IMG/VR virus record: IMGVR_UViG_3300018876_000089
Coordinates: 1-25,382 of that record
Source of the DNA: a virus
Reading direction: 5' to 3' (one strand)
DNA length: 25,382 nucleotides
Shown: piece by piece, positions 16,855 through 18,247 of the stretch
Layout of the letters: the number at the start of each line of letters is the position of its first letter
How positions within the stretch are numbered: the first letter of the stretch is position 1
Made by a program: the position numbers and the translations under genes
The notes under the pieces: generated by a model
What the model was told of the DNA's origin: nothing
Databases searched by the model: none
What the model saw: only the letters and a program-made list of their open reading frames with translations

Positions 16855-17229
16855 TTATGCCCTGCTTATTACGGTAGATACTTCTTGTGGTTGTGGGAAA
16901 CCCTTAGCATAATACTCTATAATAATTTCTATGCCATAGTCTTCCATATTGGTTTCGATCGAAATTAAATCTACTCTAGGTTCCCAAGTTCGAATTGCAT
17001 ATTCAAGATCTTCAGTCAACTCATTTTCTGTCAGAGGATCAGCTGGCTTAAACAAATAATCAAAAACCCGACTTCCAAAATTTGGATTGTATGGCCTGCT
17101 GCCGACTGGTGTTCTGATTAAATTCAACAACGCCAGTCGAACTGCTTTCTCGCCACTAGCCGGTTTAACCTCCCCCGTGTTGGGGTTTGGTGTGAAATTT
17201 AACGGTAAATCTGAATATAATTCTGCCAT
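16855..17229 (-). CDS. 25: baseplate wedge protein gp25 (GPW_gp25 family), 124 aa
   Basis: The sequence has the gp25 family layout: LLNLIRTPVGSRPYNPNFGS (residues 34-53), FDYLF (56-60) and the signature TWEPRV with EPR at residues 83-85. Its length of 124 aa is close to T4 gp25 (132 aa). In contractile systems this small protein joins the wedge core with gp6 and contacts the first sheath ring. The start has no recognisable Shine-Dalgarno. Instead a TATAAATA late-promoter element ends five bases before the ATG, so a transcript from it would begin at about the A of the start codon. Its stop is one base from the gp6 start. Confidence 0.93.
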   Translation of the reverse strand: MAELYSDLPLNFTPNPNTGEVKPASGEKAVRLALLNLIRTPVGSRPYNPNFGSRVFDYLFKPADPLTENELTEDLEYAIRTWEPRVDLISIETNMEDYGIEIIIEYYAKGFPQPQEVSTVISRA

Positions 17230-17249: not shown

Positions 17250-17423
17250 TTAAGTATTTTTTTGGTCTTGTATTTCTTTTCTTAGTTCTTTAGTTACTTT
17301 TGCAATTTCTGATAGGGCTTTTCTGGCTCTTGTGGCAGAAACTTTGACACCCTTTTCAATAAACTTTTCTCTTTCTGACAAATACGTTTCAAATAAACTA
17401 ACTAACATTTCATGATTGCTCAT
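17250..17423 (-). CDS. histone H1/Hc1-like small basic protein, 57 aa
   Basis: The minus strand holds an ATG at 17423 and a TAA at 17250-17252, with a good Shine-Dalgarno (AGAAGGAAA) about seven bases ahead of the start. The protein runs MSNHEMLVSLFETYLSEREK, then FIEKGVKVSATRARKALSEI, then AKVTKELRKEIQDQKNT. It has 12 Lys/Arg against 9 Asp/Glu and looks like one long helical pair. The pattern EKFxEKGxKxxxTRxRKxxxEIxxxxxExRKEIQxxKN resembles, from memory, the Hc1-type histone H1 family of Bacteroidota and Chlamydia (GNKAAGTRVRK...RKEVQ...KN). Small relatives occur in marine myoviruses. A DNA- or RNA-binding or virion role is inferred, not shown. It sits between gp5 and gp25, with a TATAAATA element about 92 bases upstream of its start. 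Confidence 0.8.
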   Translation of the reverse strand: MSNHEMLVSLFETYLSEREKFIEKGVKVSATRARKALSEIAKVTKELRKEIQDQKNT

Positions 17424-17452
17424 AATATTTCCTTCTATTTACAAAAAATTGC

Positions 17453-17480
17453 TTGACATTTCATTTGATTGTGTTATAAG
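17453..17480 (+). promoter_or_regulatory. strong sigma70-type promoter, antisense to gp5
   Basis: A perfect -35 TTGACA at 17453-17458 is followed after 16 bases by TATAAG at 17475-17480, extended by an upstream TG (TGTTATAAG). Transcription would start near 17487 and run rightward, antisense to gp5 and then the hub gene. No plus-strand gene lies downstream, so the product would be an antisense or non-coding RNA. Confidence 0.5.
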
Positions 17481-17530: not shown

Positions 17531-18247
17531 TTATGCCAGTTGATCGATTAAAGCTTTAATTTCTGATACAGTAACCACACCAGTTTTGTCTTTTAATATA
17601 ATATCATCGGCTTGCAACGTTATACTCGTTTTAGACGTTTCGTATTCATTTTTTATCACAACAGATGCATTGCTTCCATTTGCTATATTTAGATAGGTCG
17701 ATGGATTGACTGGTTTTATTGGTGAAATATTATCAGAATATATTTCTACCCCAGTATTGTCTTGTGGCATCGTTAGTGATATTTTAGGTTTCCCACTCAA
17801 CCCTCCATCTGGATCTAGTTTAAATTTAACTTTACCGTAAATTTCCTGTATGTATGCGTCCCTGTTTGAGTCAGCTGAATTGGTTGGATTTTGATAGACG
17901 GATGGGAATGAAATTTCCGATTCTGATGACCATTTCGCAGAATCCTGACCCATATTAGATTCAATGTTGCCTGGAATAACCCCGAGAACCATTGGTTCTT
18001 GTGCATCTGATCCATCAAGGAAAAACCCGAGAACCCAATCTCCAACATTAGGACGGCCGTAAGCACCATGCACATTCGGAGCATTCAGACAAGCAGCCCA
18101 AGGTAGAGACTGTGTCTTAATTTCATTTAAATATGCAGCTGAATGATATCCAAATATTCTCACTTTTACACGACCCAAAAGCGCAGGATCAACATTCCAT
18201 TCAACAACACCTATCCACCAAGTAAAATTTGGATTATCTGTAATCAT
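17531..18247 (-). CDS. 5: baseplate hub/spike protein gp5, OB-fold, without lysozyme domain, 238 aa
   Basis: Residues 9-32 (TWWIGVVEWNVDPALLGRVK and following) match the opening OB-fold strands of T4 gp5 (WFVGVVEDRMDPLKLGRVRV as I recall). LPWAACL and VGDWVLGFFLDG...PMVLGVIPG complete that domain by about residue 105. The remainder is a short beta-rich tail (KVKFKLDPDGG, ASVVIKNEYETSKTSITLQA). At 238 aa it is far shorter than T4 gp5 (575 aa). It has no lysozyme domain and no long run of octapeptide repeats. It would sit beneath the gp27-like hub and form the membrane-piercing spike, perhaps with a separate tip protein. The gp27-like gene ends two bases upstream. Confidence 0.88.
   Translation of the reverse strand: MITDNPNFTWWIGVVEWNVDPALLGRVKVRIFGYHSAAYLNEIKTQSLPWAACLNAPNVHGAYGRPNVGDWVLGFFLDGSDAQEPMVLGVIPGNIESNMGQDSAKWSSESEISFPSVYQNPTNSADSNRDAYIQEIYGKVKFKLDPDGGLSGKPKISLTMPQDNTGVEIYSDNISPIKPVNPSTYLNIANGSNASVVIKNEYETSKTSITLQADDIILKDKTGVVTVSEIKALIDQLA

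Follow-up and report, generated by a model that had tools for sequence, protein, structure and literature searches.

A histone H1-like PF07432 (Hc1) gene between gp5 and gp25 in a lineage of uncultured aquatic T4-like phages

In Hc1 of Chlamydia, DNA binding maps to the lysine-rich C-terminal tail, and the N-terminal domain has been reported to mediate dimerisation (PMC2848022). Phage proteins of the same Pfam family, PF07432, are already known. Histone H1-like proteins of this family are encoded by four complete large genomes of moraphages, a group of large aquatic phages, and their role in DNA compaction was only suggested by the authors (PMC12619734); a 'histone H1' is also present in the record of Synechococcus phage S-SRM01. 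Here we analyse a gene of this family in a virus record of 25,382 bases (the window, in what follows), where it lies among baseplate genes.

The Hc1 gene and its baseplate neighbourhood

On the minus strand of the window, an ATG-to-stop frame of 57 codons runs from 17423 to 17250, with the product MSNHEMLVSLFETYLSEREKFIEKGVKVSATRARKALSEIAKVTKELRKEIQDQKNT. The frame starts 107 bases past the stop of gp5 and ends 20 bases ahead of the start of gp25, and is preceded by the Shine-Dalgarno sequence AAGGAAA (17428–17434, minus strand). A Shine-Dalgarno-like motif is kept in 78 of 81 distinct relatives at the baseplate locus, so that a short frame with its own ribosome-binding site in the gp5–gp25 gap, as described in the original prediction, is borne out.

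The surroundings form a T4-type baseplate cluster in the order gp48-like, gp53, hub, gp5, Hc1, gp25 and gp6. The identities of gp25, gp6 and gp53 are backed by Pfam and PHROGs and that of the gp5-like hub by PHROGs. The constant downstream neighbour of Hc1 is the baseplate wedge gene gp25 (16855–17229, minus strand; PF04965, E 4e-14; phrog_261), and the upstream one is the gp5-like baseplate hub gene (17531–18247, minus strand; OB domain, 238 aa; phrog_694/430, with PF04717 below cut-off). The match of this gp5-like protein to the PHROG hub-lysozyme profiles, which are far longer, is confined to their N-terminal part, so that the protein appears to have no lysozyme domain.

The likeness to Hc1/histone H1-type proteins, first noticed from the sequence alone and proposed together with a profile search, was confirmed by that search. 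PF07432 matched over the whole domain (E 1.2e-12, 47.9 bits; protein 1–57 against model 1–57 of 57), with twice the bits of the curated gathering cut-off (23.5 bits), and was recovered again in a six-frame search of the window (46.4 bits). Both the score and the full coverage place the protein in the family. Profile searches of PHROGs and NCBIfam with the 57-residue protein gave nothing significant, and PHROGs contains no family for the phage Hc1 protein. Over 61 sequences, the core F21, G25, K27, R32-A33-R34-K35-A36-L37, E39, K42, K45, R48, E50-I51-Q52 and K55 is invariant or nearly so.

In 21 IMG/VR loci the frame is unbroken, and each time it lies between gp5 and gp25. Its dN/dS of about 0.02–0.11, a range that covers pairs with unsaturated dS and leaves out several with saturated synonymous sites, indicates strong purifying selection, as the original prediction required. 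The Hc1 gene is thus a genuine gene that had previously been overlooked, and with Pfam, synteny, dN/dS and AlphaFold behind it, both the gene and the family assignment of 17250–17423 are solid.

Distribution of Hc1 in phages and bacteria

A scan with the Hc1 protein returned 22 loci, with the gene between gp5 and gp25 in L001–L021. Scans by gp25 alone were used against a selection bias toward Hc1-bearing loci. Among the best 80 loci chosen in this way, Hc1 was directly upstream of gp25 in 79 of 79 untruncated loci (one was truncated). A wider scan with a more divergent gp25 query, which shares many contigs with the first, found Hc1 in 64 of 79 untruncated loci (again with one truncated), and the 15 loci without it (L339–L353) are all those with the most distant gp25s. 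With a cyanophage gp25 query the gene was found in 0 of 72 loci, and the annotations of Pelagibacter phage Mosig and Synechococcus phage Syn19 contain no Hc1 gene. Hc1 is therefore fixed in a single lineage of uncultured T4-like phages from aquatic habitats and absent from its T4-like cousins; the presence of the gene at the same locus in relatives, on which the original prediction depended, is upheld.

Seven contigs of 36–152 kb carry exactly one Hc1 copy each. The gene diverges less than its baseplate neighbours gp25 and gp5: in L018–L021, Hc1 is 69–75% identical versus 36–39% for gp25. In the tree, the baseplate-locus copies form nearly one clade (76 labelled sequences plus L013 and L016, among 82), with weak support (0.69) and from 55 residues, which permit no dating or rooting of the Hc1 acquisition. 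In L013 and L016, gp25 overlaps the Hc1 stop.

Hc1 is not restricted to the company of baseplate genes. A scan of viral contigs with the Hc1 profile gave 79 loci, with gp25 adjoining in 56 and not in 23, and copies occur in bacterial chromosomes too. Replication or recombination genes adjoin Hc1 in L145, L161, L171, L026, L163, L173, L174 and L178. In L161, the gene is near PhoH, a Cas4-like exonuclease and a gp59 helicase loader, and L145, L171 and AG-345-O18 resemble L161 in gene order; in L174 it is near an SbcC/gp46-like protein, with L173 and L178 similarly laid out, and in L162 its neighbour is a ribonucleotide reductase. Replication and recombination neighbours in other phages fit a nucleic-acid role of Hc1.

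The closest chromosomal relatives belong to Spirochaetales (up to 71% identical) and Polynucleobacter (60–61%). The resemblance to proteins of Bacteroidota and Chlamydia that had been suggested holds as a family link, and the nearest chromosomal relatives lie instead in these two groups. The chromosomal genes are flanked by unrelated housekeeping genes (metabolic, ClpA-like or tRNA synthetase), and the neighbours of the bacterial homologues show no common theme. From the homologues in Spirochaetales and Polynucleobacter it follows that Hc1 works without a phage baseplate, and the non-baseplate phage and bacterial-chromosome contexts argue against an obligate baseplate role. Some of the matches in MAGs (Pelagibacter, Neomarinimicrobiota, Pacearchaeota) may come from phage contigs that were binned with them. 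Polynucleobacter and related Burkholderiaceae (L199, L200, L203–L206, L208–L212, L214–L217 and L219) have a chromosomal Hc1-like gene of 77–78 aa with a conserved C-terminal extension, GMSQDAARHAHIRK.

Promoter motifs and predicted structure

A match to the T4-type late promoter motif TATAAATA lies upstream of Hc1 (17522–17515, minus strand) and is in place in close relatives. Only 26 of the 81 distinct upstreams at the baseplate locus have the motif, which most of the wider lineage lacks; as a motif, the late promoter of its own that had been predicted for the gene stands for the window and its close relatives but not for the lineage as a whole.

Unexpectedly, the late motif is far less well conserved than a putative sigma70-type promoter, TTGACA-16-TATAAG (17453–17480, plus strand; boxes at 17453–17458 and 17475–17480), which is directed away from Hc1, antisense to gp5, and is conserved in relatives. 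A score of 10/12 or more is reached in this orientation by 59 of the 81 distinct upstreams of the baseplate locus, but by 6 of 81 when they are read in the sense orientation and by 7.5% of shuffled sequences, although the 81 loci are related and these promoter counts are not independent. The −35 box mostly starts 10–35 bases from the Hc1 start codon, and transcription from such a promoter would run into gp5. In relatives (for example, L006, L009, L013 and L020) it consists of TTGACA, often another TTGACA some 11 bases further, TATAAT and GTGTAGCC; it faces the late promoter motif, and the sequence past GTGTAGCC is unconserved. Similar promoters are found elsewhere in four large relatives, with a total of 19 matches versus 0 for the reversed pattern. 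At non-baseplate loci, sense sigma70-type promoters are present in 10 of 20 distinct loci, about 82 bases upstream, and antisense ones in 2 of 20, which suggests that Hc1 may be early in these phages.

Structure prediction, another of the checks proposed at the outset, gave a confident antiparallel two-helix hairpin (AlphaFold2 monomer model; helices 3–24 and 27–56, mean pLDDT 96.7). On a helical wheel of helix 2, the core residues A33, A36, L37, I40, V43 and I51 are opposite K27, R34, K42, K45 and K49, and K35 and R48 lie along the edges of this basic stripe. The stripe is predicted to be exposed and is conserved. A basic residue is found at R34, K45, R48 and K55 in 98% or more of 61 sequences, at K27, K35 and K42 in 95% or more and at K49 in 80%, and most of these positions point away from the hydrophobic face; the acidic residues E39, E46, E50 and D53 flank the stripe. 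Overall, 12 K+R stand against 9 D+E, for a net charge of only about +2.6, and the protein ends at residue 57, right after the domain, with no lysine-rich C-terminal DNA-binding tail. Since the phage protein is the dimerisation domain only, DNA condensation cannot be predicted here from the 'histone' label alone. A sequence search of the PDB found no solved structure of the family, and Foldseek against PDB and BFVD returned generic helical hairpins only, none with E below 0.001; therefore, neither a function nor a DNA-binding analogy can be drawn from the fold.

The T4 prohead protease cuts at LxE motifs. An LFE near the N-terminus of the phage Hc1 is of this type; it is common to the chromosomal homologues and was thus rejected as a sign of entry into the virion.

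Possible roles and comparison with known systems

The basic stripe, together with the replication and recombination contexts, makes nucleic-acid binding plausible, judging from sequence, and the stripe could instead serve protein contacts. We treat DNA packing by the phage Hc1 as a hypothesis. Of the histone-like DNA condenser originally envisaged, the Hc1 family, the conserved locus, the purifying selection and the late motif stand, but the condensing function does not follow from a protein with no tail, so low a charge and no solved structure in its family.

We favour the reading in which Hc1 of this phage would be a late-made, probably dimeric, nucleic-acid-associated protein, and put its chances at about even, above those of a host-directed protein or a baseplate accessory. 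The analysis establishes the gene, its family, the fold prediction, the conservation and the synteny; the dimer, the nucleic-acid binding, the time of expression and any packaging role are inferences. In this reading, the ancestor of a large lineage of uncultured aquatic T4-like myoviruses probably acquired the one-domain PF07432 gene once, and its descendants have kept it in one fixed position, between gp5 and gp25. The protein would fold as an antiparallel two-helix hairpin displaying the conserved basic stripe on helix 2, and pair probably through its hydrophobic face, as reported for the N-terminal domain of Chlamydia Hc1. Synthesis would be late, from the TATAAATA promoter or by read-through, and the protein may then bind nucleic acid, whether RNA or the DNA of phage or host, and bridge it in the manner of a small nucleoid-associated protein. 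That the tail-less Hc1 domain alone bridges nucleic acid and acts as a late, dedicated nucleoid protein of the lineage, organising replicated DNA for packaging or travelling in the virion, seems rather unlikely to us.

Clearly less probable than the late nucleic-acid-associated reading is a host-takeover (moron) protein that would mimic or poison a host Hc1 and alter the host nucleoid or translation, not phage DNA. Mixed dimers could form with chromosomal homologues such as those of Spirochaetales and Polynucleobacter, and the sense sigma70-type promoter in half of the distinct loci of other phage lineages suggests early expression there; at the window locus, however, the nearby sense-direction promoter motif is of the late type, and the host of this phage may have no Hc1. 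Slightly less probable again, in our view, is a role for this small protein in the structure or assembly of the baseplate, as a hub-wedge clamp or a gp25/gp5 chaperone; its family likeness would then reflect a reused helical hairpin. Such a role would explain why the gene always adjoins gp25 within the lineage and why it lies, with a late promoter motif, among baseplate genes, but close homologues lie at non-baseplate loci of other phages and in bacterial chromosomes with no baseplate genes nearby, and Hc1 is missing from other T4-like phages that also have these baseplate genes (the cyanophage-type loci, Mosig and Syn19). Its evolution, much slower than that of gp25 and gp5, is expected of a conserved partner and not of co-diverging subunits. 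Finally, that 17250–17423 is a chance open reading frame or a non-functional remnant, as its short length and absence from PHROGs and NCBIfam might suggest, is extremely improbable and was rejected on the PF07432 match, the synteny, the intact frame in all relatives and the strong purifying selection.

The absence of the family from PHROGs means that phage pipelines based on this resource would leave the gene unnamed. Among known systems, the protein resembles the PF07432 Hc1 of Chlamydia (HctA) and Bacteroidota in its full-length profile match (57/57), and differs from Chlamydia Hc1 in the missing lysine-rich tail and the low net charge. With the moraphages it shares a phage-encoded PF07432 protein, whereas the window lineage is T4-like, with Hc1 fixed between gp5 and gp25. 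The 'histone H1' of S-SRM01 (QPX48246.1), also a T4-like phage, is 45.6% identical and has the core TRARKAL but, unlike the window gene, sits among hypothetical genes, with no gp25-like match within the 12 kb region around it. S-SRM01 is a cultivated phage, whereas the phage collection searched contained no close relative of the window. The same core is present in the chromosomal Hc1 of Spirochaetales (Sphaerochaeta and others; best 71%) and Polynucleobacter (best 60–61%), which differ from the window gene in their bacterial chromosome context; the Polynucleobacter copies have an extra tail of about 20 residues, not lysine-rich, that the window protein is without. PF07432 is named after Chlamydia Hc1, whose DNA-binding tail these phage and bacterial proteins lack, and a lineage that keeps the Hc1 domain alone, strongly selected and single-copy in each large contig, provides a minimal system for the function of the domain.
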